Shown: piece after piece, positions 36,059 to 41,324 of the stretch
Numbering within the stretch: position 1 is the first letter of the stretch
How the letters are laid out: every line of letters begins with the position of its first letter
DNA from: Synechococcus sp. A18-25c
GTDB lineage: Bacteria > Cyanobacteriota > Cyanobacteriia > PCC-6307 > Cyanobiaceae
NCBI RefSeq assembly: GCF_014280035.1
Contig: NZ_CP047957.1
Span: 558,001-622,000, forward strand
DNA: 64,000 bases
Direction: 5' to 3'
Notes under the pieces: model-generated
Told to the model about the DNA's origin: nothing
The model's input: only the letters and a program-made list of their open reading frames with translations
Database searches by the model: none
Program-made: the position numbers and the translations under genes

Positions 36059-36098
36059 CGGCAGTGCTCCCGGTCTGCACTGCTGTCAGAATGACAGG

Positions 36099-36166
36099 GT
36101 CCGGTTTTCCGGACTAGGTGATCCACACCAGTGTTTCGGACAGCGGTTCGATTCCGCTCAGCTCCA
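36099..36166 (+). ncRNA. ssrA: Permuted tmRNA, acceptor (3') piece
   Basis: The 3' half of the tRNA-like domain is encoded upstream of the 5' half. T-arm AGCGG-TTCGATT-CCGCT (36142-36158) is followed by acceptor strand CAGCTCC (36159-36165) and discriminator A (36166); CCA is not encoded. CAGCTCC pairs with GGGGCTG at 36180-36186 (one G-U). The 5' boundary is uncertain; a hairpin at 36099-36114 may mark it. The 13-nt segment 36167-36179 (TTTCTTCTTTCTC) would be removed during maturation. Confidence 0.85.
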
Positions 36167-36179
36167 TTTCTTCTTTCTC

Positions 36180-36392
36180 GGGGCTGCAATGGTTTCGACG
36201 GGGCATGAGGAGGGTGACTGAAGCCTGCTCGGTGAGAGCAAACCCGTAACTGCGAACAACATCGTTCGTTTCTCCCGTCAAGCAGCCCCTGTTGCTGCCT
36301 GACCCATTAAGGGAGATGGGGTGAGGTCAGCCTTATCACCCAATTGATCCACGGGGGCTGGAAGGCCCCCACCACCATTCCAGGGCAAGGGA
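36180..36392 (+). ncRNA. ssrA: Permuted tmRNA, coding piece with proteolysis tag
   Basis: Starts GGGGCTGCAATGGTTTCGAC, the conserved 5' end of cyanobacterial tmRNA. The tag frame at 36252-36302 encodes ANNIVRFSRQAAPVAA then TGA, the picocyanobacterial type of tag. Downstream hairpins, including GGGGGC/GCCCCC near 36354-36377, fit remaining pseudoknot elements. The 3' end is approximate. With SmpB it rescues stalled ribosomes and tags the truncated product. Confidence 0.92.
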
Positions 36393-36402
36393 TTTCAGAG
36401 AT

Positions 36403-37251: not shown

Positions 37252-37425
37252 GATTTACGGGCTGCAATGTCCCTAATTGACACCCTAATTTTAGCGAATG
37301 CGTTTTATCTACTTTGACTCAACTGCCCTTATCTATGCCAGGTATTGAAGGCTGATTGATGGAGTTAGTCAGACTAATTAGCAATGATAAACCTCTGTCA
37401 ATGCAGGGGCTTTGGGGGTGTAGGC

Positions 37426-37671
37426 TCAACAATTGTGGCTGCACTCGAACGTCCAAACTCCCTCACAGGCTCCGCCAGCTGTAGCTTCCAGCTCCTCGAC
37501 TGATAATTCTACCGATTGCATTGATTGAACATCTTCTGCAGTAATTGAAAAGCCTGCGTCTTTGGCGATTTCAACAGCAGCTTCAGGGGAGGCTGCTGCC
37601 TTGAGCTTGTCCTGAAGGCTGGTGTCAGCCATGACCTTCTCTAGGAACGCTTTGAGTTGCTCTTCTGACAT
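37426..37671 (-). CDS. Prochlorosin-like (Nif11-leader) lantipeptide precursor 1
   Basis: 81 aa. Leader residues 1-67 begin MSEEQLKAFLEKVMADTSLQ, contain IAKDAGFSITAEDVQSMQS and end ELEATAGG, the class II double-glycine leader seen in ProcA peptides of Prochlorococcus and Synechococcus. The 14-residue core ACEGVWTFECSHNC has three Cys plus Thr and Ser, enough for two lanthionine-type rings. No LanM enzyme or peptidase-transporter lies in the window, so modification would be in trans. Confidence 0.85.
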   Translation of the reverse strand: MSEEQLKAFLEKVMADTSLQDKLKAAASPEAAVEIAKDAGFSITAEDVQSMQSVELSVEELEATAGGACEGVWTFECSHNC

Positions 37672-37859
37672 TGGAGGGCGTGGAGCTACAGCCTGGTCAT
37701 AGCAACGTTCGGTAGCGGTGTCAGTTAGTAATAAAACAGCGCGCTAAATGCGGGCGATGGTATTAGGTATTGAAGGCTGATTGAAGGGGTTAGTCAGACG
37801 ATTGAAGCAATAAAAGCTCGTGACAATGCAGGAGCTTTGGGGACGTAGGATTACTTGCG

Positions 37860-38105
37860 CTAACCCAACCCCCAACCACAGGTCGCTGTGGGGTATCCCC
37901 CGCCGGATGCGCCCTCTAGCTCCTCGTCTGAAACTTCTACCGTTGCCGATTGCATTGATTGAACATCTTCTGCAGTAATTGAAAAGCCTGCGTCTTTGGC
38001 GATTTCAATGGCGGCTTCAGGTGAGGCTGCTGCCTTGAGCTTTTCCTGAAGGCTGGTGTCAGCCATGACCTTCTCTAGGAACGCTTTGAGTTGCTCTTCT
38101 GACAT
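37860..38105 (-). CDS. Prochlorosin-like (Nif11-leader) lantipeptide precursor 2
   Basis: 81 aa, leader almost identical to precursor 1 through IAKDAGFSITAEDVQSMQS, with a small insertion before EELEGASGG. The core GYPTATCGWGLG has one Cys at position 7 and Thr at 4 and 6; Thr4-Cys7 would give one four-residue ring. The leader is conserved while the core is unrelated to its neighbour, the pattern typical of prochlorosin families. Confidence 0.83.
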   Translation of the reverse strand: MSEEQLKAFLEKVMADTSLQEKLKAAASPEAAIEIAKDAGFSITAEDVQSMQSATVEVSDEELEGASGGGYPTATCGWGLG

Positions 38106-38229
38106 TGGAGGGCGTGGAGCTACAGCCTTTTGATAGTCACGATTGGCTTCAACGACTCAAACGGTCATCGATAAGCCACCAAACAGCCACTTGCGCATGG
38201 GTCGCATGCCAGGGCAACGACCCCATGGC

Positions 38230-38499
38230 TCAACTACTACCTAATTGACCCCCGCCACCAGCAATGGCAGCAAGGGCAACAGCATCCAGCTCGAAATCAT
38301 CGAACTCGTCATCGTCATCCATCTGCCTGAGGAAGCCACGCACCTCTTCCACGGTGAGGGTCATCCCCTTCTCTGCCGCAATCTCCACCATGCGCTGGAT
38401 CGAGGCATCAGGGTCTGAGGTCATCAGCTTGAACAGCTCACCCTGCACACTCATCGGCACCGCATCACGCATTGCCTTGAACTCGTCCAGGGTTGCCAT
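38230..38499 (-). CDS. Nif11-related double-glycine peptide with acidic leader
   Basis: 89 aa. Begins MATLDEFKAMRDAVPMSVQG, contains MVEIAAEKGMTLTVEEVRGF, an acidic DDDDEFDDFELD stretch and ends AIAGGGGQLGSS. The fold pattern and GG site resemble Nif11/nitrile-hydratase-type leaders, but the remaining peptide has no Cys. It may be a helper or a decayed precursor. It lies directly upstream of precursor 2; a damaged copy sits in the same position upstream of precursor 3. Confidence 0.6.
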   Translation of the reverse strand: MATLDEFKAMRDAVPMSVQGELFKLMTSDPDASIQRMVEIAAEKGMTLTVEEVRGFLRQMDDDDEFDDFELDAVALAAIAGGGGQLGSS

Positions 38500-38552
38500 C
38501 AGCGGATCTGCAGCGTGACTCCGTTGTAGCCCTGATGCGGCAACAGTTCAGC

Positions 38553-38573
38553 CACCCGGATCGAACCGGGTGA
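38553..38573. other. Hairpin after a small ORF
   Basis: CACCCGG-ATCGAA-CCGGGTG, 7-bp perfect stem, starting a few nt after the stop of the 36-aa ORF on the minus strand. No T-run follows. Confidence 0.4.
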
Positions 38574-38579
38574 CCCGCT

Positions 38580-38690
38580 TCAGCGCACTTGGACCCGAAG
38601 TCCTTCCTCGATGCGGTTTAAAGATGTTTGCTCGGAGTGAGTGGCGAGCATGCCAATGACGGTGAAGGCGATAACCAGTGCGCAAGCCAT
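38580..38690 (-). CDS. Small single-helix membrane protein, hypothetical
   Basis: 36 aa from the ATG at 38690: a hydrophobic N-terminal helix (MACALVIAFTVIGMLATH) then a polar tail (NRIEEGLRVQVR). It is too short for most gene finders. It is followed by the 38553-38573 hairpin. Function unknown. Confidence 0.4.
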   Translation of the reverse strand: MACALVIAFTVIGMLATHSEQTSLNRIEEGLRVQVR

Positions 38691-39264
38691 GAGCTGAGAA
38701 GTGTGTGGTTTGGGGTCTCCCCCTTCGATGCACACACCATCTCGGGAATCACCAAACGACTCGATGATCTGCCTTAAAGCAACCTGTGATGTTGCTCACA
38801 GGGTTTTAAAAGCACTGCAATGACTCGGTTTCAAAGACTCACTCCCCAGTTCCAGCCCACCATCCGATCTGCTTCCTCCTCGTTAAGTCATGGCACCGTG
38901 AAGTGACGCTTCAGCTCGTCAACCACATCCAGCAAAAGCTTGTAAAAGCCCAGCTCAAGCAATGACCCGTACCCAAAACTTTTTCGCACGTCATACAAGT
39001 ATCAGTTCAATCAAGAGCATGACGGTCATCAATATTTCCAGTGTCAACGGTTTGGTTGAACTGCTGTAAGTGTTGATGACCGTCAGAAGAATCTGAGGTA
39101 TGGCTAACAAGGATCGCCCGCTCGTTGATCATCATTCGCCCTAGGCTGGTGAAGTGGGTTGGCTGGCGAACGCTCAAGATTGGTGGTACGGATCAAACTC
39201 GCCGTCATGCCCACACTTTTGGGTTTCTACAAAAAATCAGTCTTGTGAGTACATCGTCGAAGTC
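38691..39264. other. Long intergenic stretch with an inverted repeat
   Basis: No convincing gene in about 570 nt. A 16-codon open frame (MTVINISSVNGLVELL) sits inside the 39020-39085 inverted repeat. The remainder shows no clear ORF, repeat or RNA signature. Confidence 0.5.
39020..39085. repeat. Perfect 13-bp inverted repeat with 40-nt spacer
   Basis: TGACGGTCATCAA at 39020-39032 and its exact complement TTGATGACCGTCA at 39073-39085. As RNA this forms a strong stem with a 40-nt loop; it could be an sRNA, a regulatory stem or a relic of a mobile element end. Confidence 0.7.
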
Positions 39265-39597
39265 TTAGTTAGTTTCATCAAGTACGCTGGGTTGGCACAT
39301 CAAAATAATGAACCAGATGCCGCCTATAAACGGAACCAGGCTAATAAAGATCCACTGCCATTGTTTGCCAATGTCGCGAAGCCGACGAACCACGAGCGAA
39401 AGATTGGGGAAGATGCTCGCGACTCCATAGAAAAGGGTTAGAACAGCTCCAAACTCTGATGCATTTCCTAGCGATTGCAACACGAGTATGACGATGAACT
39501 GGGTGAGGAAGAACCACCAATATTCGGCTCTTGTTGCTTTACCGCCGTAGGTGAAGGCCTTTCTCCAAGCAGTAGTGAATGCTTCTGCAGGTCCCAT
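39265..39597 (-). CDS. DUF805 family membrane protein
   Basis: 110 aa from the ATG at 39597 (MGPAEAFTTAWRKAFTYGGK), the usual DUF805 start; the frame is open to 39717 but that part is not family-like. Contains the DUF805 motif RAEYWWFFL, several membrane helices and VVRRLRDIGKQWQWI. Function unknown. Confidence 0.8.
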   Translation of the reverse strand: MGPAEAFTTAWRKAFTYGGKATRAEYWWFFLTQFIVILVLQSLGNASEFGAVLTLFYGVASIFPNLSLVVRRLRDIGKQWQWIFISLVPFIGGIWFIILMCQPSVLDETN

Positions 39598-39823
39598 GTG
39601 ACTCAATGCAAGGTCTCCGTGCCTTGTTTTAGAGCTCAACAGAGCGACTGGCAGCACGAGGTTCACTACAGCACACAAAAGAGAGAGTCGTGCTAGTCGC
39701 AGCTTGTAGCCCACCATTCACATTCGTCGTATCCCAGCTGTCAGCTAGCTGCCCCAGCACAAGCATTGGAGTCCGCCGGCCGCGCCATCACTGCTCATCT
39801 ACCGAAAGCCCCGCTTGAGATGT

Positions 39824-39968
39824 TTATCGCTCTTCAACAGAAATTGTGAAGCCTGCTTCCTTGGCAATGCCTCCAATGGCATCAGGGTCGGTGACACCTT
39901 TTAGCTTTTGTTGAAGCGCTGGGTCTGACTGAATGGCTTCCAGAACGCTTTGGTTGCTCTTTTTACAT
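39824..39968 (-). pseudogene. Decayed Nif11-leader precursor gene
   Basis: Reading from just after a degraded start (ATG followed by TAA at 39963-39968) gives a frame with LEAIQSDPALQQKLKGVTDP then IAKEAGFTISVEER and a stop, clearly a Nif11-type leader. There is no GG site and no core. The flank ACATTGGAGT resembles the intact copies. Confidence 0.65.
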
Positions 39969-40102
39969 TGGAGTAAGTGATACTATAATTTAGCTGTAGC
40001 AACGGTCAGCACCATTTCGCTGATTGATCTTCAATGAGGGCGTTGGCTACTAGAAGACTTCACGAAATGCTCAAGCTTTCTTCTCTAGGCGTTTCTCGGA
40101 CC

Positions 40103-40390
40103 TTACAGCACGCGTGCGGGTGGGTTTCCCTCGGTCTGAAACAAGCACGCTCTGCATCTGATGTCGATATCGAAGCTGGGAGATTGCACTCCTCCTGCTG
40201 CAGCTTCCAGCTCCTCGTCTGATACTTCTCCCGATTCCATTGATTGAATATCTTCTGCGGTAATTGCAAATCCTGCTTCTTTGGCGATTGCAATCGCAGC
40301 TCCAGGGGAGGCTGCTGCTTTCAGCTTTTCCTGAAGCCCGGTGTCGCCTTTGACAATTTCTAGAAAGGCTTTGACTTGTTCTTCGGACAT
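40103..40390 (-). CDS. Prochlorosin-like (Nif11-leader) lantipeptide precursor 3
   Basis: 95 aa. Leader begins MSEEQVKAFLEIVKGDTGLQ, contains IAKEAGFAITAEDIQSMESG and ends EELEAAAGG. The 28-residue remainder starts VQSPSFDIDIRCRACLFQTE and has two Cys (12, 15), two Ser (3, 5) and one Thr (19), so one or two rings are possible. More diverged from precursors 1 and 2 than they are from each other. Confidence 0.8.
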   Translation of the reverse strand: MSEEQVKAFLEIVKGDTGLQEKLKAAASPGAAIAIAKEAGFAITAEDIQSMESGEVSDEELEAAAGGVQSPSFDIDIRCRACLFQTEGNPPARVL

Positions 40391-40494
40391 TGAAGTGAGT
40401 GGGACTTCTGGCGTCTCCTAGCCACGATCGGCTTCAACGACTCAAACGGTCAGGGATGAGCCGCCAAAGAGCCATCTGCGCATGGGTCGCATGC

Positions 40495-40721
40495 CAAGGC
40501 AACGGCATCCAGCTCGATGTCATCGAACTCGTCATCGCCGTGCATCTCCCTGAGTAAGCCACGCACCTCTTCGGCGGTCATCGTCATCCCTTTCTCAGCA
40601 GCTCTCCACCATGCGTCGAACCGAAGCATCAGGTTGTTGAGGTCATCAGCCTGAACAGCTCCCCTTGCACATTCATCGTCACCGCATCTCGCATGGCCTT
40701 GAACTCTTCCAGCGTTGCCAT
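40495..40721 (-). pseudogene. Frameshifted copy of the MATLDEFK-type peptide gene
   Basis: From the ATG at 40721 it reads MATLEEFKAMRDAV then stops after 30 codons because of a +1 change (ACAACC where the intact copy has GACCC). A second frameshift follows in the VEIAAEKG region. DNA similarity to 38230-38499 continues to about 40495. It occupies the same place relative to precursor 3 as the intact copy does to precursor 2, so the pair was duplicated as a block. Confidence 0.8.
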
Positions 40722-41324
40722 CGGTCTTTGTGTGGAATCCCTGTTCGGGGTTGCGCAGCGACCGCCAAGAGATCTATCACGGACATGTAGCGACCGCTAC
40801 TAAACGTTCACTCCACTTCTGTGGGGCGCAGCTCGATCCAAGCCATGGAACGGGGGCTTGGGCTCTGCAGGAGCTGTGATGACCGCGTTGTATTGGAACG
40901 GTTCAGCATTTGCACCAGTGAGGAAGACTGCCGCTAAGAAAGAGGCGGTTTTACTGCATCTGGAAGCAGCTTTCATGGGCGCCGATGCCATCCCCTCACA
41001 GAAGCACCGAGGATTGATGTATCTCCGCCAAAACGGATTCGCAGCAACCCGCTGAGTCTCTCAAGCGCTGAGTGGAGTGGTTTTGCAGACAACACCACAC
41101 ATCACGGCGTTGCAAGGCGGCTCTTTCTGAGTGCCCAGGGGTCTTTTTAGGGGTCTTTGGGAATCCAATCGGGTGACGGCCTACTCCACGTCCAGGTGAT
41201 TTAGCGCCATTCCCTCCTCGCCATCGACTGTTTGCCGGTCCAATGACCCAATCAGTTACGGCAACGTTGTTGAAATCCCACTTCCCTGCTCCTAGAACCA
41301 GTCTTGAATGAGTCCCTACTTCCG
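40722..41324. other. Intergenic stretch with one ambiguous small ORF pair
   Basis: About 600 nt. Opposing small frames overlap at 40800-41055: plus 65 aa (MTALYWNGSAFAPVRKTAAK core) and minus, from an ATG at 40976, 58 aa with a signal-peptide-like start (TASFLAAVFLTGANA). Neither can be preferred from sequence alone. Nothing else recognised. Confidence 0.4.

Follow-up and report, generated by a model that had tools for sequence, protein, structure and literature searches.

How does one genome keep dozens of unrelated core peptides on a single kind of leader? The question is raised by three small genes of Synechococcus sp. A18-25c, whose genome (assembly GCF_014280035.1) is one contig, NZ_CP047957.1, of 2,511,360 bases. 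The window, meaning the whole stretch of DNA that was analysed, is 64,000 nucleotides long and covers positions 558001-622000 of this contig. The three genes are read here as precursors of prochlorosins (synechococsins), modified by one lanthionine synthetase of the LanM type and exported by an ATP-binding cassette (ABC) protein with a C39 peptidase domain, their unlike cores having come onto like leaders by block exchange. The probability of this reading is put at roughly 0.85.

Precursor genes

The three genes have the following positions in the window.

37426..37671, minus strand: precursor 1, prochlorosin-type, 81 amino acids; leader 37471-37671; core and stop codon 37426-37470, ACEGVWTFECSHNC
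37860..38105, minus strand: precursor 2, prochlorosin-type, 81 amino acids; leader 37899-38105; core and stop codon 37860-37898, GYPTATCGWGLG
40103..40390, minus strand: precursor 3, prochlorosin-type, 95 amino acids; leader 40190-40390; core and stop codon 40103-40189, 28 residues with two Cys

An earlier note on this DNA had described three open reading frames (ORFs) with leaders ending in GG and unrelated cores, and the ORF analysis and the models TIGR03798 and Pfam Nif11 bear this out. The leaders of precursors 1, 2 and 3 start with MSEEQL, MSEEQL and MSEEQV (common pattern MSEEQ(L/V)KAFLE) and end in EELEATAGG, EELEGASGG and EELEAAAGG. They match TIGR03798 (leader_Nif11) with E = 1.7e-22, 1.5e-24 and 3.8e-22 (79.4, 86.0 and 78.3 bits), all three above the curated cut-off of 32.3, and Pfam Nif11 with E = 1.2e-17, 6.9e-18 and 1.1e-16; the resemblance is therefore not a matter of chance. 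The start and end motif of prochlorosins (MS/TEEQL-type; D/EELExxxGG), as given in the excerpts of PMC10783134, is present in all three; gene 3 departs from it by having V in place of L at position 6, and gene 1 by having VEELE. Precursors 1 and 2 stand nearly in tandem with a repeat spacing of 434, and the leader block is found again at precursor 3. Every core contains Cys as well as Ser/Thr, with the Cys counts of three, one and two that had been noted before. By residue count, core 1 could hold at most two thioether rings (three Cys, two Ser/Thr), core 2 one and core 3 two.

Modification and export genes

The genome contains one match to class II LanM (738 bits; curated cut-off 304) and one LANC_like match, both in a gene at about 1862320-1865700, about 1.26 Mb from the window. 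The earlier statement that the window has no modification enzyme thus holds for lanthionine synthetases; no search for other enzymes of ribosomally synthesised and post-translationally modified peptides (RiPPs) was made there. The LanM product of 1126 amino acids has the domains PF13575 (dehydratase) and PF05147 (cyclase) and the motifs YKPKD, DTETLL, HHENL, WCHGAPG and CCG, the last of which marks the ProcM group according to the excerpts of PMC10783134. In an alignment with nine same-genus relatives, a selection from the same-genus LanM matches, it was 43.5 to 87.2% identical to the others, the closest being that of genome G023 (87.2%), with G010 at 49.0%.

On the same strand and in a row with the LanM gene are genes for an ABC protein of 714 residues, for a second ABC protein of 737 residues that has a C39 peptidase domain (PF03412, E 6.1e-31) and is encoded upstream of LanM, and for an HlyD-like protein, which lies at the edge of the stretch examined and is covered there for 274 residues. 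The reading frames of LanM and of both ABC genes are open. The earlier note had proposed to search the rest of the genome for a LanM and a peptidase-domain ABC transporter, and both were found in this one gene row. Its proposal that one promiscuous LanM serves scattered substrates gains support from the lone, distant LanM of CCG type. By analogy with the ProcM and SyncM systems, this LanM would bind the shared Nif11 leader, dehydrate the Ser/Thr of any core attached to it and then close thioether rings onto Cys. The nearby C39-peptidase ABC protein, if it acts as its counterparts do, would cut after GG and export the product.

Relatives of the LanM also occur outside the cyanobacteria, in two Roseovarius loci and one metagenome-assembled genome of the Opitutae, with 44, 44 and 45% identity in the best segment. 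The same loci contain one, one and six Nif11-leader-like ORFs, respectively. Both Roseovarius relatives have the CCG motif; the Opitutae locus was left out of the motif comparison, its longest open frame not being the LanM. On sequence grounds, this co-occurrence suggests that prochlorosin-type systems have been transferred between phyla.

The precursor set in the genome and the genus

TIGR03798 matches 54 stretches of the genome at E<=0.01, and 47 of these score above its cut-off. When a complete precursor is taken to have EQ or VQ near the start, a GG-like leader end and a core, the genome has 37 complete prochlorosin-type precursors, and a profile built from these 37 leaders and run on the examined stretches of the genome again returned 37. 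Cys occurs together with Ser/Thr in 36 of these cores; the remaining one has 14 Ser/Thr but lacks Cys. Among 31 genomes of the genus, this one included, a Nif11 leader match is present in all 31 and a LanM match in 13 (over the cut-off in 12). The window genes are ordinary members of a large set that is most likely served by one enzyme.

In genome G008 (3.31 Mb), two LanM matches exceed the cut-off and a further, partial match stays below it. The same genome has at least 135 Nif11 leader matches, a count based on scoring 135 out of 276 candidates. Four short ORFs at 1451557-1451963 and 1713013-1713688 of the A18-25c genome have a leader end like EELESVSGG and no Nif11 match, and some of them have Arg-rich tails.

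Leaders compared with cores

The comparison of leaders and cores is based on 265 precursors from stretches, not whole genomes, of 11 genomes. No core of the window was seen again in this sample, so that the earlier description of potentially new products is fair; 256 of the 265 cores are distinct, and a new core is therefore the rule in prochlorosin-type precursors and not surprising by itself. The core of precursor 3 found matches of at most 36 bases in 399 other genomes of the family, with two candidate stretches scored per genome.

Leader DNA identity was at least 0.80 in 6,032 of the 34,980 precursor pairs. With leaders at 0.80-0.85 (5,163 pairs) and 0.85-0.90 (765 pairs), the mean core identity was 0.48 vs 0.47 in shuffled cores; at 0.90-0.95 (91 pairs) it was 0.52 vs 0.48. 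The 13 pairs with leaders at 0.95 or above reached 0.70 vs 0.53, four of them having cores at 0.9 or above, one being intermediate and eight falling under 0.6. Genes 794337 and 801692 of A18-25c illustrate the pattern: leaders 96% and 3' flanks 94% identical, cores unrelated.

The reverse case, like cores on unlike leaders, was sought in pairs with a core identity of at least 0.9. There are 15 such pairs, several of them representing one core across three genomes, and 11 were tested; in six of them mismatches were rarer in the core than in the leader at p<0.05. Gene 792702 of A18-25c and gene 1344625 of G023 agree in 107/111 core positions, 142/198 in the leader, 52/111 upstream and 74/140 downstream (Fisher core vs leader 1.3e-8), and their resemblance stops about 45 bases behind the stop codon. 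Two paralogues of genome G028 share 111/111 core positions, silent sites included, and 166/198 in the leader (Fisher 2.8e-7), with an identical run from about 57 bases before the leader end to about 45 bases behind the stop codon. Since the identity extends to silent sites and beyond the stop codon, purifying selection on the peptide is insufficient as an explanation. The plain reading of the core-sharing pairs with discordant flanks, as far as sequence comparison can tell, is recombination with break points in the leader end and the 3' flank. Such recombination would bring a core and some of the adjoining flank sequence into a new setting, as opposed to slow mutation in place, and ordinary homologous recombination between copies would suffice for it. 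Leader and 3' flank identities were uncorrelated in three genomes in which the two halves of the leader served as positive control; the 3' signal itself is weak, and the claim is not rested on this test.

Conserved 3' element

Behind precursors 1 and 2 lies a conserved element.

37340..37424, minus strand: conserved 3' element behind precursor 1, with a terminator-like stem that is imperfect here
37765..37849, minus strand: conserved 3' element behind precursor 2, with a terminator-like stem and a T-rich stretch

A stem CCCCTG..CAGGGG followed by a T run was found by pattern in 19 of the 37 precursor copies of the genome, precursor 3 not being among them. Single folds gave z below -1 in 16 of the 19 copies against mononucleotide shuffles. 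With dinucleotide shuffles as the reference, the window copies had z of about -1; folding based on the alignment gave no convincing result, and the consensus scan did not list the stems. Judged from its sequence and single folds, the element is terminator-like.

Alternative explanations

Cores might instead change where they stand, through rapid point mutation and small indels, with diversifying or relaxed selection on the core, purifying selection on leader and terminator, and no exchange of blocks. Insertion-deletion in the core is one of the two mechanisms named in the excerpts of PMC10783134, and one pair shows an apparent change in Pro-Gly repeat length (FVPPPPPPGPG..., leader 0.96, core 0.85). 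Against this stand cores near the shuffled level in most pairs, even at 95-97% leader identity (8 of 13), and cores that agree at 96-100% in DNA, counting silent sites and part of the untranslated flank, in genes with leaders of just 72% and 84% identity; divergence in place is thus considered unlikely. A stronger contender, which still falls somewhat short of even odds, is concerted evolution, in which gene conversion homogenises the leaders and 3' flanks of paralogues while each core is old and unique, so that flanks move and cores do not. It would account for leaders and flanks being alike across scattered copies and agrees with the pairs from G016 and G025, in which the core (33/33 and 80/81) is accompanied by a 3' flank of 149/150 and 143/150, the leader standing at 162/186 and 168/192 and the upstream region at 51/107 and 47/101. 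The pair formed by A18-25c and G023 is harder to place there, because the likeness lies mainly in the core block and neither flank resembles its counterpart, which would need two exchanges. Core movement and flank conversion are, from sequence comparisons, hard to tell apart. That the window genes are decaying leftovers without a product is improbable: broken copies lie beside and between the precursors (39812-39943, 40450-40721), precursor 3 is outside the copies with the 3' element and the stem of precursor 1 is imperfect, but none of the three ORFs is interrupted, each having a complete leader, GG and a core with Cys, and the LanM and both ABC genes are open. Least probable by far is modification by an enzyme other than LanM, for example of the YcaO type; YcaO clusters accompany syncA genes in some marine Synechococcus strains according to the excerpts of PMC10783134, but a LanM is present here and nearly all cores combine Cys with Ser/Thr; no YcaO search was made in this genome.

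Several observations weigh against the reading of the three genes as precursors diversified by block exchange. Promoter-like sites were not above chance (2 found vs 2.2 expected). The best NCBIfam families of the exporter proteins are those of the NHLM set, with scores under the curated cut-offs (700.8 vs 853.3; 532.6 vs 709.4; HlyD-like part 75 vs 156.2). No second context was found for any of the three cores among the 265 precursors or, for core 3, also in the 399 genomes. Five of the 11 tested core-sharing pairs have leaders like those of ordinary shared genes, and only three of the 11 contrasts between core and leader survive Bonferroni correction for 11 tests, in pairs preselected for alike cores. 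Correlation between the halves of the 3' flank is itself poor (r 0.20, p 0.12; 0.10, p 0.11), which weakens the test of leader against 3' flank; one leader-3' pair does correlate in G028 (0.19, p 0.003), as do upstream region and leader in G008 (0.18, p 0.002). With these points taken into account, cores appear, from the aligned copies, to be exchanged as blocks by recombination. The more specific proposal is that recombination carries a ready-made core block, bounded by the 3' part of the leader and the initial tens of bases after the stop codon, from copy to copy and from species to species, with no retroelement involved and, in A18-25c, no Y1-type transposase either; it is given an even chance.

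Possible engines and carriers of core change

Diversity-generating retroelements produce a localised hypervariable stretch in an otherwise conserved gene. The system described here differs from them in that blocks of different length appear to be exchanged, and the reverse transcriptase model PF00078 has no match in the genome (control positive in 3 of 14 genomes). The Y1-type transposase model PF01797 also has no match in the genome (three candidates scored; control positive in 5 of 14 genomes), and with these results both were rejected as engines of core change in A18-25c. The Y1-type model fits a protein beside precursor-like genes in G219, and Laurenceau et al. are said to have reported lanthipeptide genes linked to REP (repetitive extragenic palindromic) transposases. 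Carriage by phages was also considered: in an alignment of eight precursors against a viral collection, 256 stretches matched the pattern and none was confirmed, so that phages are not shown as carriers.

Templates for the cores were sought as shared 16-mers in 300,204 bases of the genome's own loci (partly overlapping, about an eighth of the genome). Extra matches were obtained for one core only, that of gene 793888, of which a truncated copy with nearly the same core exists in the genome. The literature searched, a limited collection, yielded nothing on prochlorosins together with gene conversion.

Second precursor-like family and other features of the window

The following features lie between and beside the precursors.

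38230..38499, minus strand: second precursor-like gene, 89 amino acids; conserved EFDDFELDAVALAAIAGG followed by a short tail; no Pfam or NCBIfam family over the cut-off
38178..38231, minus strand: remnant of the conserved tail peptide, EPWGRCPGMRPMRKWLFG, at and behind the stop codon of the second precursor-like gene and outside its reading
39812..39943, minus strand: Nif11 leader remnant with an internal stop
40450..40721, minus strand: broken (frameshifted) copy of the second precursor-like gene

The second precursor-like gene, its frameshifted copy and the leader remnant were absent from the earlier note. The product of 38230-38499 ends in ELDAVALAAIAGG plus GGQLGSS. TIGR03798 does not match this copy; among 11 aligned members of the family three are at E<=1 (best 0.02), the cut-off not being reached. 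The family is unannotated, with a weak likeness to Nif11. It has 13 matches in the A18-25c genome, some of them broken, such as 40450-40721, and relatives in loci L119, L124, L152, L155, L203, L210 and L221-L237. A C-terminal Cys is found in nine of ten aligned members, with the window copy as the exception and a G029 member, cut before its in-frame tail, left out. A motif search of all examined loci gave 18 members closed by a stop codon, 16 of them with a terminal Cys (six of seven in A18-25c).

In relatives, some members run on in frame into a fixed tail, CCQEEAHDEPWGRCPGMRPMRKWLFG or close to it, on several different leaders; the fixed tail peptide of the relatives is QEEAHDEPWGRCPGMRPMRKWLFG. 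The copies seen in A18-25c have a stop codon or a frameshift between leader and tail. The tail is present in 6 of 350 genomes of the family, A18-25c included. Selenocysteine at the in-frame TGA behind the terminal Cys was considered and dropped: 14 of the 16 Cys-ending copies have TGA and two TAA, and the tail is out of frame in several copies of A18-25c. Genomes G014 and G029 have genes of the second family and no LanM match (G014 is only 58% complete). No RiPP enzyme was found among the six neighbours scanned beside one tail-bearing copy of G029 (glutathione-transferase, Rieske/PaO, bestrophin, AhpC/TSA and DUF1499 proteins and one without a match).

Elsewhere on the plus strand, a cyanobacterial transfer-messenger RNA gene (36077-36393) lies about 1 kb from precursor 1. 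A Glutamine-II riboswitch (40802-40862, plus strand; 66.9 bits, gathering threshold 33) overlaps the beginning of an ORF of 65 residues (40858-41055), for which Pfam gave no match.

Related systems and significance

The closest known systems are the prochlorosins of Prochlorococcus MIT9313 (ProcA/ProcM) and the synechococsins of Synechococcus MIT9509 (SyncA/SyncM). According to the excerpts of PMC10783134, their Nif11 leaders likewise start with MS/TEEQL and end in D/EELExxxGG, and they too have hypervariable cores, scattered genes, a CCG-type LanM and ABC/C39 export genes near it. The A18-25c genome differs in its cores, in its number of complete precursors (37) and in that no Y1-type transposase was found. 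The Nif11-derived precursors (N11P, TIGR03798), as excerpted from PMC2887384, share the leader family and the paralogous expansion, with lanthionine machinery replacing the cluster of thiazole/oxazole-modified microcins (TOMMs) in some cyanobacteria; it is a broader family, some of whose precursors are processed by TOMM enzymes.

The precursors of the window extend the known library of prochlorosins and synechococsins. To the question of how dozens of unrelated cores are kept on one kind of leader, the core-sharing pairs offer a testable answer and named gene pairs in which to pursue it. If cores are indeed transplanted, the family would amount to a cassette library of natural origin on which a single promiscuous enzyme acts.

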